Of a stretch of DNA of 64,000 bases, positions 4,484 to 51,666 are shown in pieces. The DNA is from a virus. A program made the position numbers and the translations under genes. Numbering within the stretch: position 1 is the first letter of the stretch; every line of letters starts with the position of its first letter. The DNA is taken from positions 51,493 to 115,492 of IMG/VR virus record IMGVR_UViG_3300035670_000055, one strand, 5' to 3'. Under the pieces are notes generated by a model. It saw only the letters and a list, made by a program, of their open reading frames with translations, searched no databases and was not told the origin of the DNA.

Positions 4484-7400
4484 CTACCCACATTTACTAG
4501 ATCCACAATCTAAACATTTATTACACCCTTCTTCAAATATTACATTTTCAGAACCGCAATCATTACACTTCACCGTAGACTTTGCGCCATCAGGAATATA
4601 TTTCTTTAAAACTCTTACAAGTCCTTTTGTAAAAGAAAATAAATCTCCATTACATTTATTTATCTGTTCTACAATAAACTTAATATCTGCGCCATGTCTT
4701 AATGAAACAGAGACTAGTCTAGTAATAGCAGCTTGTTCGTCAGTCATTTCAGAAGTAACACTTTCTGAATAAGTCTCCCCATCTTTTATTAAATCATACC
4801 TACCTTTATTAATTTTCTTCAAAATTAATTCTTGTTCATGTGTAAAGTATTCTGTCACAAATACTTCGTAAGGTTTATTATTAAGTAATCCTACAATAAC
4901 GTTATATTTTTTACCATTTGCATTGGTAGTATGGATTTTACATTTAAGTTCTTTAGGTCTTTTGGGAGCATCTACGTAATTAAATTCATCTCTTCCTTTA
5001 TTTTCTGTAGTAGAGACTAGAACGCCACTTCTTGAACCATCCCTATAAACCGTAATACCTTTTAATCCTTTATTCCAAGATTCAAAATAAATTTTAGAAA
5101 CTTCCTCTTCTGATACATTATTTGGTAAATTAATAGTTGAAGAAATACTATGAGTAGTATATTTTTGTATAATACTCTGCATTTCGACTCTTTTAATCCA
5201 ATCTATATCATTAGCTGTAGAACCATCCCAAGGAGTAGTATGATTATCCAAAAATTCTTTCGTGATTTTAACTAATTCTTCCTGTTCTTCTTTAGTATTA
5301 ACATCTAGAGATATATTGATATTGAATAATTTCATATAATCAATTAATTTTGGATGAATTACAGCATATTCTTGCCAACTATCCCCAGACTCGTCCACAA
5401 AATCCACTCGTACATTTTTATCATTAGGATTGATTTTTTTTCTCCTAATATATGGATGTAATGAAAAGATTGGTTCAATTCCAGATGTAGTTTGAGTTAA
5501 TAAACTTACAGTACCAGTAGGGGCTACAGTATTCCAAGATACATTTCTTCTTCCATGTTCAATCATTCTTTTAGCTTGATTAGGATAATTATTACTTATA
5601 AAATTATAAAAAGAATTCTCTCCACCTAATAAATTAAAATCTCCTGGAAATAAAGATTTCCAATCAAATTCTAAAGAACTATTCCAACCTTCAAATGGAC
5701 CTCTAAGTATAGCTAAGTCAATAGTACAATCTAATTCAGCTTCCATTTTAATATGCATTATTTGTTCTACAAATAATAAAGCTTCATCTGAATCATATTT
5801 ATATCCTAAAGCAGCTAATGTATCTCCTAAAGCAGTAAAACCAAGTCCTGTTCTTCTGGAAGCTTGTGCTGTCTGTTTAATTTTATTCCATAGTTCAATT
5901 TCTGTCCATTTAACTTCATTTGATTCTGAGTCTGAATTAAGTTTGTTTAAAATTCTATTAATATGCTCAACTTCTAAATCAATAAGATCATCTGATAACC
6001 TCATTGCTTCATATGTAATTCTATAGAATTTTTCAGAATCAAATTCTACATCTTTTGTAAATGGATTCTTAACAAAGGAATAAAGATTTAATGCTATTAA
6101 TCTACAAGCATCATACGGTTGCATAAAAATTTCTCCGCAATTATGAGCTATAACTCCTTGAATAACACCCCAATGAGTATCATCATTTAAACTAAAATCA
6201 TAAACTGGTTTAACTTCTGTAATTTTTGCAGATAAAATTTTTGGAGCTTTTGTTAAAATAAGTTCTTTTAAAGAATCTTGTTTATAATTATGAACAAATC
6301 CAATATTCTCTGCAAATTTTAATACTGCCCTATATTTTGAAATATTTAAATCATAAGATTCTTTGCACAAATAAATTCCATTAGAAAATTCAACTTCTTT
6401 AGCTTTATTTGTAGTAAAATAATTATCAATTCCAAATTCTTGTAATACATTAGATAATTCTAAAATTAATTCTTTACAAGTAGATTTAAAAGATATTCTA
6501 TGTCCTTTTATAATACTTCCATTAGCTGACCATAATCCTTTTAAAAACATTAATTTATTATCAGGACTCCAATTATAAAAAGTTGTAGGTAAAGTCCTAT
6601 TTGGTAAAATAGAAGAATCAAATCCTAATTCTTTTAAAATCTCATTAAATCCTCCTAGATAAATTTTTCCAGTAGTCTTTACATTAAATAGCTTAGCAAT
6701 GTCTTCATCTTTTTCACCAATATTAACTTCTATACCTAAATGAGCAGTTGAATCTAGTCTTCCTGTACAACCATCTCCTTGTATAAATCCGTATTTAACA
6801 AACTCATTAATTTTGTCATTTATAATAAAGAAAGGCATTAGTCTATCCTCTTTAGTTATAAATTGAGCTTGTTTTTCTGAACCATCTGTTAACATAAATC
6901 TATGATCAATTGTGGTTACAATTGTTTCTTTATTACTTAAATTTAATGTGTAAGTAGCTTTCTCTCCTGATTTAAATACTGTTCCAGATACAATTTTTCC
7001 ATCTTTATTTACAAAATCAATATCTTGACCTTCTAAATCTCCAATTTTCTCATACCCATGAGCTGTTAGTATTTTAGTTTCATAGCTAAAACATGGATTA
7101 GTTGTTACCCCTTTGAATTGAGGATAAACTCCATCAGGTGAATAGTTATGATGATTATCTACAAATATAATTCCTGGTTCTGCGTATCCATGAGCTGATT
7201 TAATAACTTCTTCCCAATATTCTTTAGCTTTAATTTTTTTTGTATAAACAACATCTCTACTTTTTATATGAGAGCATCTATACAATGTATTATATTCTAT
7301 AGTTTCATCTGGGTATAATAATTCTTCTGTACTTGAATTACATGGAAATTTAAGAATGTAATCTTCATCATTTTCTACAGCTTTCATGAATTCATTATTA

Positions 7401-8044
7401 ATTTTAATAGAAATGTTGGCTCCTGTTACAGAAGTACCATCTCTTTTAATTTTAATGAAATCCATTACATCAGGATGGTTAATATCTATTGACAACATTA
7501 ATGCTCCTCTTCTTCCATTTTGAGCCACTTCTCTGGTAGTGTTGCTAAATCTATGCATGAATGATACAGCTCCTGTAGTAGTTTTTGCAGCGTTTGAAAC
7601 AGAAGTATTTTTAGGTCTAAGAGTAGATATATCTAATCCTACTCCACCTCTTCTTTTCATTAATTGAGCCATTTCTTCATCTTTTTGAAATATTCCACCA
7701 TAAGAATCTTCTGGTGTACCTATTACAAAACAATTAGATAATGAACCTATTGATTTTGCACCTAATTGAGACATAATAGAACCTTGAGGAATTATGTACT
7801 TAAAGTCTTTAAAAAGATTATAAATACTATTTTCTGTCATAAAACCTCTACTTTTACCATAAGTAGATAATAGTCTTAAGTCAGATTCTTTTTTCTGGTA
7901 TTCATAATCTATTCTAAAAAACTCCTTTGCCATTCTTTTATGCATATCATCAGGAATTTCTTCTTCTTCTTGTGCATATTTTCCTAACCATACTGATGAT
8001 GCTAAATCATCTCCATTAAAATAACTTAATAATTTGTCTTGCAT
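4484..8044 (-). CDS. nrdJ: Class II (B12-dependent) ribonucleotide reductase with intein
   Basis: 1186 residues, of which 318-635 are an intein, leaving an 868-residue enzyme. The extein has SMHRFSNTTREV, the split TNP/CGEIFMQPYDACRLI active-site loop, NVSWNTVAPTGTVSLL, and the C-terminal KGITVYRDGSR segment. It ends in a four-cysteine ribbon (CNDCG...CNKCLDCG) typical of adenosylcobalamin-dependent NrdJ. It reduces ribonucleotides to deoxyribonucleotides without a separate small subunit, so the host must supply cobalamin. It is separated from recA by a strong nested hairpin and probably heads or ends its own transcript. Activity depends on intein removal. Confidence 0.93.
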   Translation of the reverse strand: MQDKLLSYFNGDDLASSVWLGKYAQEEEEIPDDMHKRMAKEFFRIDYEYQKKESDLRLLSTYGKSRGFMTENSIYNLFKDFKYIIPQGSIMSQLGAKSIGSLSNCFVIGTPEDSYGGIFQKDEEMAQLMKRRGGVGLDISTLRPKNTSVSNAAKTTTGAVSFMHRFSNTTREVAQNGRRGALMLSIDINHPDVMDFIKIKRDGTSVTGANISIKINNEFMKAVENDEDYILKFPCNSSTEELLYPDETIEYNTLYRCSHIKSRDVVYTKKIKAKEYWEEVIKSAHGYAEPGIIFVDNHHNYSPDGVYPQFKGVTTNPCFSYETKILTAHGYEKIGDLEGQDIDFVNKDGKIVSGTVFKSGEKATYTLNLSNKETIVTTIDHRFMLTDGSEKQAQFITKEDRLMPFFIINDKINEFVKYGFIQGDGCTGRLDSTAHLGIEVNIGEKDEDIAKLFNVKTTGKIYLGGFNEILKELGFDSSILPNRTLPTTFYNWSPDNKLMFLKGLWSANGSIIKGHRISFKSTCKELILELSNVLQEFGIDNYFTTNKAKEVEFSNGIYLCKESYDLNISKYRAVLKFAENIGFVHNYKQDSLKELILTKAPKILSAKITEVKPVYDFSLNDDTHWGVIQGVIAHNCGEIFMQPYDACRLIALNLYSFVKNPFTKDVEFDSEKFYRITYEAMRLSDDLIDLEVEHINRILNKLNSDSESNEVKWTEIELWNKIKQTAQASRRTGLGFTALGDTLAALGYKYDSDEALLFVEQIMHIKMEAELDCTIDLAILRGPFEGWNSSLEFDWKSLFPGDFNLLGGENSFYNFISNNYPNQAKRMIEHGRRNVSWNTVAPTGTVSLLTQTTSGIEPIFSLHPYIRRKKINPNDKNVRVDFVDESGDSWQEYAVIHPKLIDYMKLFNINISLDVNTKEEQEELVKITKEFLDNHTTPWDGSTANDIDWIKRVEMQSIIQKYTTHSISSTINLPNNVSEEEVSKIYFESWNKGLKGITVYRDGSRSGVLVSTTENKGRDEFNYVDAPKRPKELKCKIHTTNANGKKYNVIVGLLNNKPYEVFVTEYFTHEQELILKKINKGRYDLIKDGETYSESVTSEMTDEQAAITRLVSVSLRHGADIKFIVEQINKCNGDLFSFTKGLVRVLKKYIPDGAKSTVKCNDCGSENVIFEEGCNKCLDCGSSKCG
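6140..7093 (-). mobile_element. Intein with LAGLIDADG (DOD) endonuclease inside nrdJ
   Basis: A 318-residue in-frame insertion. Block A at its N-terminus is CFSYETKILTAHGYEKIGDL. Block B includes TIDHRF. Two LAGLIDADG-like motifs follow (VKYGFIQGDGC and FLKGLWSANGS). The C-terminal blocks read KPVYDFSLNDDTHWGVIQGVIAHN, followed by Cys +1. Splicing would join TTNP to CGEIF, restoring the conserved TNPCGE loop. Cys1, the penultimate His, terminal Asn and Cys +1 are all present, so it looks splicing-competent. Confidence 0.92.
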
Positions 8045-39943: not shown

Positions 39944-40081
39944 TTCCTGTGACAGGATTCGAACCTGTATGTTATCTTCAACTTTTTTGTTGTCTAATAG
40001 TTTGACAATCTGATTTGTATAAGACTTGCAAATCTAATACTCATTTGATAACCATGTGTCTACCAATTCCACCACACAGGA
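39944..40081 (-). tRNA. tRNA-Leu-like gene (CAA?) with about 50 extra bases
   Basis: Acceptor TCCTGTG/CACAGGA with A73, D arm GTG-GAATTGGTAGA-CAC in the class II (Leu/Ser) style, and T arm ACAGG-TTCGAAT-CCTGT are intact. At the anticodon position the loop ATCAAAT carries CAA (Leu) with U33 and A37, but the stem TGGTT/GAGTA has a mismatch. About 68 bases lie between it and the T arm, where class II tRNAs have 11-20. The insert can form TTGTC/GACAA and CAAC/GTTG hairpins, or GTTATC/GATAAC can close everything. Total 138 nt. CCA is not encoded. Confidence 0.6.
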
Positions 40082-46903: not shown

Positions 46904-47176
46904 TTAAAGAAATTCTAAATTAATATCATCTATTTTTGTATTTTTTAGATAATTAATTAGTTCTTCATTATAATCCATAGAATTAGGATCTTTATATGTT
47001 TCCTGAGATAACATATTTCTTATTACTGAAAATACATTATCTTCATTGTCTAATGTTTCTTGATATACTAATGTTGGTTTATTATTTTTAATAATATATC
47101 CGTATATATCTTTTACTCCTGTTATCATTTCATCTTCTATATGAAGAATTCCTGTTAAATAAATTGTTTTACTCAT
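46904..47176 (-). CDS. Hypothetical protein, 90 aa
   Basis: Beta-rich start (KTIYLTGILHIEDEMITGVKDIYGYIIKNNKPTLVYQ) and acidic end. Unknown. The long gap downstream holds the 236-nt RNA element. Confidence 0.5.
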   Translation of the reverse strand: MSKTIYLTGILHIEDEMITGVKDIYGYIIKNNKPTLVYQETLDNEDNVFSVIRNMLSQETYKDPNSMDYNEELINYLKNTKIDDINLEFL

Positions 47177-47247
47177 AATTATTTTGTTTTTAGTTAATTA
47201 AATCCAGAAATACTCTATAATATCTCTGGAATATATAATATAAAAAA

Positions 47248-47483
47248 AGAATCACTTACATCATCCAAAGTCTAGTGGAATATTAAAGTTAGACAACCTC
47301 ATTCCTTGTATTAATATATTTGCAATTCTACTAATACATCTAATCTTTCTGGTGGGATGGGCTTAATATCTTTACAATAAAACACAACTATCTAGTAATA
47401 GTTTATAACAATATCCTAATTCTCAGCTAGGACTGACCATCTTGTAAATGTTATTGTTTATCTTCAAGTGTGTAAGTGATTCT
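47248..47483. ncRNA. 236-nt structured RNA candidate closed by a 13-bp stem
   Basis: AGAATCACTTACA (47248-47260) and TGTAAGTGATTCT (47471-47483) pair perfectly and enclose several local helices: GGAAT/ATTCC with an inner AAGTT/AACCT hairpin (47277-47305), AACTAT/ATAGTT (47386-47403), and AACAAT/ATTGTT enclosing TCCTA/TAGGA (47407-47458). No open frame of useful size crosses it. The closing stem ends six bases from a gene stop. It does not match tmRNA, RNase P or group I cores that I can recognise. Strand undecided, minus favoured by the neighbours. Confidence 0.6.
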
Positions 47484-47489
47484 AATATA

Positions 47490-47714
47490 TTATTTATTAT
47501 TAAATATATAATCTTCACATTCTTCATATTCCCAAGAAGGATTTAAAAAATGTGTAAGTTCTATTAAATATAAATCTGAATTATATTTAAAACCATAAGC
47601 AGAAACAAAACTATTCTCAGATTTATATTCAAAATTATGGGTACAATCTTCCCAATTACATATATGGAAAAGAGATAATACATACATCAATATAACAAAT
47701 AATAATTCTTTCAT
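47490..47714 (-). CDS. Small secreted or membrane protein, 74 aa
   Basis: MKELLFVILMYVLSLFHICN is a signal peptide or anchor, followed by an acidic aromatic domain with two Cys (WEDCTHNFEYKSEN ... YEECEDYIF). Probably exported to the periplasm. Unknown role. Confidence 0.5.
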   Translation of the reverse strand: MKELLFVILMYVLSLFHICNWEDCTHNFEYKSENSFVSAYGFKYNSDLYLIELTHFLNPSWEYEECEDYIFNNK

Positions 47715-48694: not shown

Positions 48695-49134
48695 ATTGCT
48701 TTTTCTATTTTTAATATTTTACATTCCCATCCATTCACTTTATCTATATGAGGAAGACCATAAGAAATAAACTCTAAAACTATTTCAGCTCCTTCATATC
48801 CTATAGAAGGATATCTATTACTTCCTCCTCCTTTATGAGAAAGATTAGAACTAATTTCTTTAACATTCTTTCCTAATATATAATCAGAAAATTTATTAGG
48901 TCTGGAAACAAGTACCTGATTATTACAAACAAGTTTATCTCCATTATATCCTAAATATCTAAACCTAGCAGTAACAGTATAAGTAGATAATACTAAATCA
49001 TCCAATAATTTAAATAACTCAATATCTAAATTACTATTAATTAAATATCCTATAGAAAATTCTCTATTATATATATCTTCATCAGATATAGATTTGCACC
49101 AATTTTTATTTGTCCTATCAATTTTTAGTTTCAT
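48691..49134 (-). CDS. Hypothetical protein, 147 aa
   Basis: Beta-rich protein (FSIGYLINSNLDIELFKLLDDLVLSTYTVTARFRYLGYNGDKLVCNNQVLVSRPN ... GAEIVLEFISYGLPHIDKVNGWECKILKIE). Unknown. First gene of a small operon whose upstream region is the 866-bp gene-free block. Confidence 0.5.
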   Translation of the reverse strand: MKLKIDRTNKNWCKSISDEDIYNREFSIGYLINSNLDIELFKLLDDLVLSTYTVTARFRYLGYNGDKLVCNNQVLVSRPNKFSDYILGKNVKEISSNLSHKGGGSNRYPSIGYEGAEIVLEFISYGLPHIDKVNGWECKILKIEKAI

Positions 49135-49309
49135 ATTGCTATATATTTTTATATGTATTTAGATTTTTATAGTTATTTATAAAGGTTAATTATTGGTTGA
49201 GGTATTACACCTCTCATCTTTCTCCCTCATTCTCTCTCACATATATATTAAAAATTTTAATTATATTATTAATATAGGTTAATAATATTAACTAAAACAT
49301 CAATAAAAC

Positions 49310-49422
49310 TTTATTTGCTCCAAGCAAAAAGTTTTTATTCTCATTAAAGAGAAAAACATCCCTAAGACAAATAGAAATAAATTCTATAACGCCTACTCTA
49401 GTCTTAGGAATGCTTAAATAAA
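49310..49422. ncRNA. Three-way-junction RNA candidate A
   Basis: Outer helix TTTATTT/AAATAAA (49310-49316/49416-49422) and AAGCA/TGCTT (49322-49326/49411-49415) enclose two hairpins: GTTTTT-ATT-CTC...GAG-AAAAAC (49331-49357) and CCTAAGAC/GTCTTAGG (49361-49408). All stems are perfect. Confidence 0.5.
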
Positions 49423-49541
49423 AATATATAATAATGAATGTCTATTAAGAATAACAAGAATAACAAGAATATTTGTTTAGTTTATATATATATGGAAATA
49501 TTAGAAGACAAAAATTACATTATTATATATGTATGTGTTTT

Positions 49542-49645
49542 ACAGCAGAAACTATAATATATGAGTTAGCCCTTATTTTGAACTCATAAATTGGAAGCTT
49601 GTATTTTCACAATGCCTTGTGTACTATATTATAGAACTATGCTGT
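49542..49645. ncRNA. Three-way-junction RNA candidate B
   Basis: Outer helix ACAGCA/TGCTGT (49542-49547/49640-49645), then CTATAATATA/TATATTATAG (49552-49561/49625-49634), enclosing ATGAGTT/AACTCAT (49561-49587) and CACAA/TTGTG (49608-49621). Same plan as candidate A: a two-part outer helix and two inner hairpins. Confidence 0.5.
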
Positions 49646-49683
49646 GCTCAACATCTTGCAATGTTATTTTAGTTTTTATTATA

Positions 49684-49803
49684 TTATTTCCAGATATAAA
49701 GAATATTGTTCTGTTCTCTGGAATATTGAATTGTGATAAATAAAGGTGATTATATATTAATTCTTGTAACAGAACAAACACAAAGTTTATATATCTGGAA
49801 TAA
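49684..49803. ncRNA. Long two-part stem RNA candidate C
   Basis: TTATT(T)CCAGATATA (49684-49698) pairs with TATATCTGGAATAA (49790-49803) over 14 bp with one bulge. Inside it TTGTTCTGTT (49706-49715) pairs perfectly with AACAGAACAA (49768-49777). An AT-rich apical region of about 50 bases remains. Confidence 0.55.
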
Positions 49804-49924
49804 CTTTTTCTCTGTACTATAATAATGTTATTATATTATCCTTGAGAAATAATAATGGTACATTAAAAGTACACTCCTTATATATATATATGTAGAATTT
49901 CTTTTCTTTCTTTTTTTTTATATT

Positions 49925-49953
49925 CCCAACCCAGGAACAAGTTCTCCCACCCC
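49925..49953 (-). other. Possible G-quadruplex on the minus strand
   Basis: Read on the minus strand: GGGG-T-GGG, 13 bases (AGAACTTGTTCCT), GGG-TT-GGG. Four G-runs of at least three in a genome where such runs are rare. It lies just beyond the terminator of the 171-aa gene. Confidence 0.4.
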
Positions 49954-49966
49954 GTAGCTATATAGA

Positions 49967-50002
49967 ATAATAAAGCACCCTAATTAAAGAGTGCTTATTA
50001 TT
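49967..50002. terminator. Terminator of the 171-aa gene
   Basis: AATAATAAAGCAC with GTGCTTATTATT (one bulged A) around about 11 bases. It overlaps the stop codon of the 171-aa gene. Confidence 0.7.
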
Positions 50003-51353: not shown

Positions 51354-51666
51354 GGAATTTATTATTAGGAGTATGTCTACAACATTAATGATTCCAGAGA
51401 AAACTATAAATGCTGTAATAGATCATCAATTTGTAGGAGTATCTTCAGCAATGAAAAGACATAATAGCATTGAAATATCTGGATTTGGAAAGTTTTTATT
51501 TAATACAAAGAAAGCTGAAAAGAGAATGGAGAAGTTTGTTAGTCAAAAGAATTTATTTGAAGAGAGAATGAATGACGAAACACTTTCTGAAGTTAGGAGA
51601 AACACAGCTAAATATAAATATGAAACTGCTGTACAAAATATTAATGATTTACAAGAGAAGTTATGA
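51325..51666 (+). CDS. IHF/HU-like DNA-bending protein
   Basis: 113 residues. IKEFIIRSMSTTLMIPEKTINAVIDHQFVGVSSAMKRHNSIEISGFGKFLFNTKKAEKRM matches the HU/IHF fold: two helices, then the I-x-G-F-G-K-F strand. The long DNA-embracing arm is replaced by a C-terminal coiled coil (residues 75-113). IHF-like subunits encoded before TerL are a known feature of crAss-like phages. It probably bends DNA in packaging or replication. Confidence 0.75.
   Translation: MEKPATMSIKEFIIRSMSTTLMIPEKTINAVIDHQFVGVSSAMKRHNSIEISGFGKFLFNTKKAEKRMEKFVSQKNLFEERMNDETLSEVRRNTAKYKYETAVQNINDLQEKL

Follow-up and report, generated by a model that had tools for sequence, protein, structure and literature searches.

A family of structured phage RNAs with a covarying core and two hypervariable arms in crAss-like and other large tRNA-rich phages

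The DNA analysed here, referred to as the window, comprises 64,000 nucleotides (positions 51,493 to 115,492) of the 115,492-bp IMG/VR virus record IMGVR_UViG_3300035670_000055. The phage is crAss-like, as seen from a major capsid protein of that type (PF23898, E 1.5e-30) and a terminase encoded in the window. A noncoding stretch of 236 nt is surrounded by a block of small minus-strand genes (Table 1). It had been proposed from its letters alone, in what we call the original prediction, to be an undescribed multi-branched RNA in which a perfect 13-bp closing stem encloses at least three further helical domains, with no open frame. The perfect 13-bp inverted repeat is indeed present at the two ends of the stretch, and the open reading frames on either side, 46904-47176(-) and 47490-47714(-), lie outside it, with none running across. 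A terminator-like hairpin follows the 3' end (1 found vs 0.1 in shuffles). No tRNA gene adjoins the RNA in the window itself.

Taken alone, the 13-bp closing stem is weak evidence, modestly above chance. When perfect 13-bp inverted repeats with arms 30 to 300 nt apart were counted in the window, 11 start-pairs were observed vs 3.1 expected on average under an order-1 Markov null with 26% G+C (maximum 8 over 30 runs). The region folded modestly better than shuffles on both strands, with z = -2.44 on the plus strand (3/200 shuffles equally good) and z = -2.94 on the minus strand (2/200 shuffles). The closing stem being unremarkable by itself, the case for an RNA rests on its homologues. The RNA strand is minus, as for the neighbouring genes and for the homologues.

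Phage contig L006, reached through a relative of the 206-aa protein encoded nearby, carries patches similar to the RNA beside that gene. A shared 3' motif, AATATTCCACTAGANTTTGGA, was matched in eight contigs, a motif around the P4 loop gave 28 matches, and two more patterns, one free of loop constraint and one with a variant P6 loop, gave 30 and 18. None of these DNA patterns constrained both loops, and covariance models were used as well. After removal of duplicates and chance matches, the family has 43 distinct members, window included, nearly all on uncultured phage contigs. Pattern matches in L069, L125 and L136 were dropped as members for having no fold around the motif, and the match in L142 for having no P4 partner.

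The original prediction had pointed to a covariance search in related phages. Model R1, built from 19 homologues with the window excluded, recovered the RNA at 47480-47251(-) with E = 8.1e-12; its second-best match within the window had E 0.61. Model R2, built from class B members only, recovered class A and class C members with E values of 2e-7 to 3e-9, so the classes form one family. We regard the RNA class and its fold as almost certainly genuine and conserved.

The crAss capsid was found in 17 of the 29 records of the first set (window included) and in 5 of the 24 of the second. It was absent from several long member records, for example those of 122, 149, 274, 306 and 368 kb, and the family is therefore not confined to crAss-like phages. 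Near relatives of the window's phage carry the RNA (G000, G008, G024 and G047), and no match was found in the long crAss relatives G018 and G023; this patchy distribution indicates that the RNA is accessory. No convincing copy was detected in Fpv1 and Lbo-JY46, cultured phages with a related capsid, and the record from which the window comes showed no class B copy. A blastn comparison of the RNA locus with named phages returned short chance matches only, and a 23-nt exact piece of the window returned nothing from viral contigs. In GTDB genomes there was no match to the class A pattern, and the class B pattern gave one true match and two chance matches. The true match lies on a 3-kb contig with a tRNA array, which was assigned to a Roizmanbacteria MAG and is probably of phage origin.

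The conserved fold has six helices, P1 to P6, which corrects the original prediction in this point. From 5' to 3' the order is P1, the P2 5' strand, the P3 arm, the P4 hairpin, the P2 3' strand, the P5 arm, P6 and the P1 3' strand. Comparison of the members shows that P1 closes a four-way junction (P1/P2/P5/P6) and that P2 carries a three-way junction (P2/P3/P4). P1, P2, P5 and P6 are contiguous without unpaired bases in most members, and member size is about 150 to 280 nt.

Table 1. Positions of the RNA, its helices and the hairpin that follows it, in window coordinates.
Feature	Position	Strand	Remark
Whole structured RNA, class A (loops CUAG/CUAG)	47248..47483	-	5' end at 47483; R1 model match
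P1 5' strand AGAATCACTTACA	47471..47483	-	Perfect pairing with 47248-47260
P2 5' strand CTT-GAA-GATAAACA	47455..47468	-	GAA opposite GUA, conserved internal loop
P3, hypervariable arm 1	47405..47454	-	Closed by ATAACA/TGTTAT; double changes in 6/6 basal pairs counted
P4 hairpin AACTAT-TACTAG-ATAGTT	47386..47403	-	Double changes in 5/5 stem pairs
P4 loop TACTAG, predicted kissing half 1	47392..47397	-	Loop-loop covariation
P2 3' strand TGTTTTAT-T-GTA-AAG	47370..47384	-	One T more than in most members
P5, hypervariable arm 2	47280..47369	-	Closed by ATATTAAG/CTTTAATAT; double changes in 6/7 basal pairs
P6 hairpin TCCA-CTAGACTT-TGGA	47264..47279	-	4-bp stem; double changes in 4/4 pairs
P6 loop CTAG, predicted kissing half 2	47272..47275	-	Four complementary loop types in family
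P1 3' strand TGTAAGTGATTCT	47248..47260	-	Perfect pairing with 47471-47483
Terminator-like hairpin	47203..47230	-	17 nt past RNA 3' end; consensus scan only

The core pairing is kept by matched mutations while the two arms vary freely. With 35 members aligned to the model, 94.6% of cells were paired and compensatory double changes occurred at 35 of the 39 pairs (0/500 shuffles). This alignment leans to the covariance model, and controls with slid partners, used as a check, lowered pairing to 33 to 48%. For class A cores aligned by MAFFT only, a table in which the window's own P1 is misaligned, 88.0% of cells were paired, with double changes at 24 of the 45 pairs (0/500 shuffles) and 37 to 50% pairing in the slid controls. 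Class B alone, in its own MAFFT alignment, gave 91.1% pairing, with double changes at 29 of the 46 pairs and at 10/10 pairs of P1. Across the family, too, P1 had double changes at 10 of its 10 pairs. In P2, where CUU-GAA-GAUAAACA pairs with UGUUUAU-U-GUA-AAG, 98.8% of cells were paired, with double changes at 4 of the 7 pairs; the base of P2 in class B is CU/AG in place of CUU/AAG, one base fewer per side. Almost no unpaired residues are conserved across the family.

The loops of P4 and P6 also changed together. The pair UACUAG with CUAG (pairing CUAG/CUAG) was found in 21 members, GCUAAG with CUUAG (pairing CUAAG/CUUAG) in 14, UAUCAG with CUGA (pairing UCAG/CUGA) in 7, and UUACAG with CUGUAA in 1; for L072, L132 and L138, where the script had chosen other hairpins, the loops were identified by eye, and those of L156 were read separately. 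Each loop forms 4 to 6 bp with its own partner vs only 2 to 3 bp with the other versions. In alignment A7, the P4-P6 loop pairing had 24 double-change cells vs 7.4 in shuffles. The match was not made by the search, because the class A and class B scans constrained one loop each and the class C scan neither. The four matched versions support a kissing-loop contact between P4 and P6. Since P4 (5 bp), the kiss (4 to 6 bp) and P6 (4 bp) add up to 13 to 15 bp, about as long as P2 alongside (13 to 14 levels), the contact is likely to form within one molecule; against this, such complementarity could also work between molecules, and CUAG is self-complementary.

Each of the two arms is paired at its base, and its interior cannot be aligned between members; across members P3 is about 25 to 107 nt and P5 about 25 to 136 nt long. 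The phages of L127 and L130 share 83 to 88% identity in the region of the RNA; the two RNAs have the same core and P5 and a wholly different P3, with 30 nt in one and 57 nt in the other. Several phages have a pair of copies whose arms differ (L081, L080 and L151), and in L080 and L151 the copies are a class A and a class B RNA in tandem. Hairpins resembling a T-arm, noticed by eye in a few of the arms, were not clearly enriched (2 vs 0.9 in shuffles). Relaxed constraint, rather than selection, could account for the variability of the arms.

The family is absent from Rfam. At gathering thresholds, no Rfam match was found in the window or at 13 homologous loci, and permissive scans of four members returned weak matches only (E > 0.6), inconsistent between members. 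No earlier description was found in the open-access literature, supplements and subscription papers being outside the scope of that search, so an unindexed one may exist; in the libraries searched, no comparable RNA turned up for crAss-like phages. The proposal of an undescribed multi-branched class is supported. Homologues with pairs broken without compensation and a match to a known family had been named beforehand as evidence against it; both were looked for, and compensation was seen at 35 of the 39 pairs and no match in Rfam. The minus strand, the tRNA association described below, the kissing loops and the hypervariable arms go beyond what had been predicted.

Two complementary loops are also a feature of the phi29-type pRNA, a small phage RNA with a three-way junction, in which loop pairing between copies builds a ring on the prohead. 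The family has a three-way junction too, and covariation preserves its two complementary loops. It differs in the layout of its junctions and in its position in tRNA arrays or among early genes, sometimes twice per phage; moreover, it was not found in some long relatives, and the phi29 pRNA model of Rfam was unmatched.

A second comparison is with GOLLD and ROOL. GOLLD is phage-encoded, often lies near tRNA islands, and has a structured core, a less conserved part, kissing loops and no assigned function (PMC12286853). ROOL is a phage and prophage RNA near tRNA islands with kissing loops, a poorly conserved linker and no known protein partner, and the cages of both RNAs use kissing loops (PMC12286853). 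The present RNA is likewise phage-encoded, has predicted kissing loops and occurs in tRNA islands (10 loci at 8 nt or less, the window not among them). However, many GOLLD RNAs exceed 800 nt and ROOL has about 660 nt and another fold, in contrast to the sizes given above, and neither Rfam model was matched. The best reading is a class of phage tRNA-island RNA comparable to GOLLD and ROOL in setting but unrelated to them.

These parallels raise the possibility of an RNA-only oligomer like GOLLD or ROOL, in which the P4-P6 kiss would connect one molecule to the next in a ring or chain, in the manner of the phi29 packaging RNA, with the arms displayed or enclosed. The covarying loops, the island setting and the self-complementarity of the class A loops agree with it. 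We nevertheless consider it unlikely, as both loops sit on hairpins of one molecule whose summed length is roughly that of P2, which favours the intramolecular contact, and as the loops of the tandem A and B copies do not fully cross-pair; the missing Rfam matches also count against it.

It had been stated that the stretch has no tmRNA, RNase P, 6S or group I consensus, and the corresponding Rfam models were unmatched at the RNA, apart from one 9-bit chance match to GIR1 on the other strand. Like tmRNA, the RNA has a long-range closing stem and can occur in the same phage tRNA arrays, but ARAGORN and Rfam detected no tRNA-like domain or tag frame at it, and genuine, separate tmRNA genes lie nearby in L060 and L090. 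A ribozyme serving the tRNA array, whether self-cleaving or a divergent relative of RNase P or tmRNA, might be read from the compact junctions, the GAA/GUA internal loop of P2 and the tRNA-array position. It is improbable, since all these models failed to match, real tmRNAs coexist with the RNA, and almost no conserved unpaired residues are available for an active site.

Within the tRNA islands, tRNA genes lie 8 nt or less from the RNA at 10 loci. Six of them have a tRNA gene at this distance on both sides of the RNA (L126, L128, L131, L134, L139 and L146, with L126, L131 and L134 being separate records of one RNA); at L060, L075, L077 and L156 a tRNA ends about 4 to 6 nt upstream. The features downstream of the RNA are mostly unrelated: tRNAs of several specificities, phrog_15656 genes and small ORFs. 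Because the downstream genes differ, the RNA is probably stand-alone and trans-acting, and together with the tRNA-flanked position this points to a free RNA excised with the tRNAs. Control of the next gene by a cis-acting riboswitch, attenuator or processing signal would suit the window, where a terminator-like hairpin follows the RNA and the adjacent genes are co-directional. It is highly improbable given the varied downstream features, the lack of a conserved expression platform, and P1 helices that close directly at tRNA boundaries.

ORFs similar to GIY-YIG endonucleases overlap or touch the RNA at L076:7951-8132 (same strand) and L084:4540-4747 (opposite strand). Despite these ORFs, the patchy distribution and the wholesale swapping of modules, a DNA-level mobile element whose inverted repeats merely resemble a closing stem is extremely improbable, as the repeats differ between classes and co-change with their partners inside single copies, and as internal helices and a loop-loop contact that covary are unneeded for DNA recognition.

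Other noncoding elements were noticed as well. L006:5210-5830 has five stem-closed elements in tandem; the homologue of the window RNA is the fourth, and the other four have different sequences and their own closing stems. In the same islands as the RNA, a second conserved element was seen at L062:12550-12670, L064:5269-5386, L068:5539-5696(-) and L080:8064-8229. It has a hairpin AAAGGCUAAACAUUGAACCUUU, then a variable arm closed by GUAAAUU/AAUUUAC, then a hairpin AUCCUGAAUUGACAGGAU (CUAUCAGUAAUGGUAG in L068), and may represent another RNA family that combines a constant core with a variable arm. The third, GUGUUGUUCCCUUGAGAAAGGAA ... CAACACAAAUGAGUUCUCAGCAAGUAGU, is likewise conserved and occurs at L062:12716-12825 and L064:5480-5583 and also in L068, L074, L075 and L080, and a fourth, CCUUACUCUUAUAUAAGCUUACGCAGAAAUGUUGUAGUAAUAUAAGACAAGAGGGU, is shared within the islands by L068 and L080 (8518-8578).

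Elsewhere in the window, 49134-50001(-) is an 870-nt stretch without convincing genes that contains more stem-closed candidates, one of them around 49800-49680 (TTATTCCAGATATA...TATCTGGAAATAA). At 39944-40081(-), a tRNA match is spread over 138 nt (Rfam, 36.4 bits; no ARAGORN report), which suggests a tRNA gene with an insert or intron. A ribonucleotide reductase-like ORF at 4484-8044(-) has an apparent intein-like insert, judged from its translation only.

We lean toward a new class of stand-alone structured phage RNA, carried mostly by crAss-like phages and also by other large tRNA-rich phages. Judging from its position, we consider it reasonably likely that the RNA is part of tRNA-array or early-gene transcripts, from which it would be released with P1 at its two ends. 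The P4-P6 kiss would then fold the single molecule beside P2, and the RNA very probably acts in trans. That the rigid core is a scaffold presenting the two variable arms to a partner is a proposal on which we are evenly divided. The likeliest single target, named tentatively, would be a host defence nuclease or a host factor that works in or close to translation or tRNA metabolism, and the arms would change under host-specific selection. Just as speculatively, the RNA might be a phage weapon or shield, in which a fixed kissing-loop chassis carries host-specific arms that bait or inhibit a defence nuclease or the translation machinery; phages would exchange the arms as cassettes and keep the chassis, and further RNA families of the same plan would lie in the same tRNA islands.

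The crAss-like phages rank with the most abundant phages known. Why large phages carry long tRNA arrays is still a matter of debate. GOLLD and ROOL are unexplained RNAs in such arrays, and the present family adds a widespread, smaller and well-defined class. Since the support for the fold and the tertiary contact comes from covariation alone, compensatory mutation could test both directly. Few noncoding RNAs combine a constant chassis with hypervariable arms, and this arrangement suggests host-phage conflict.
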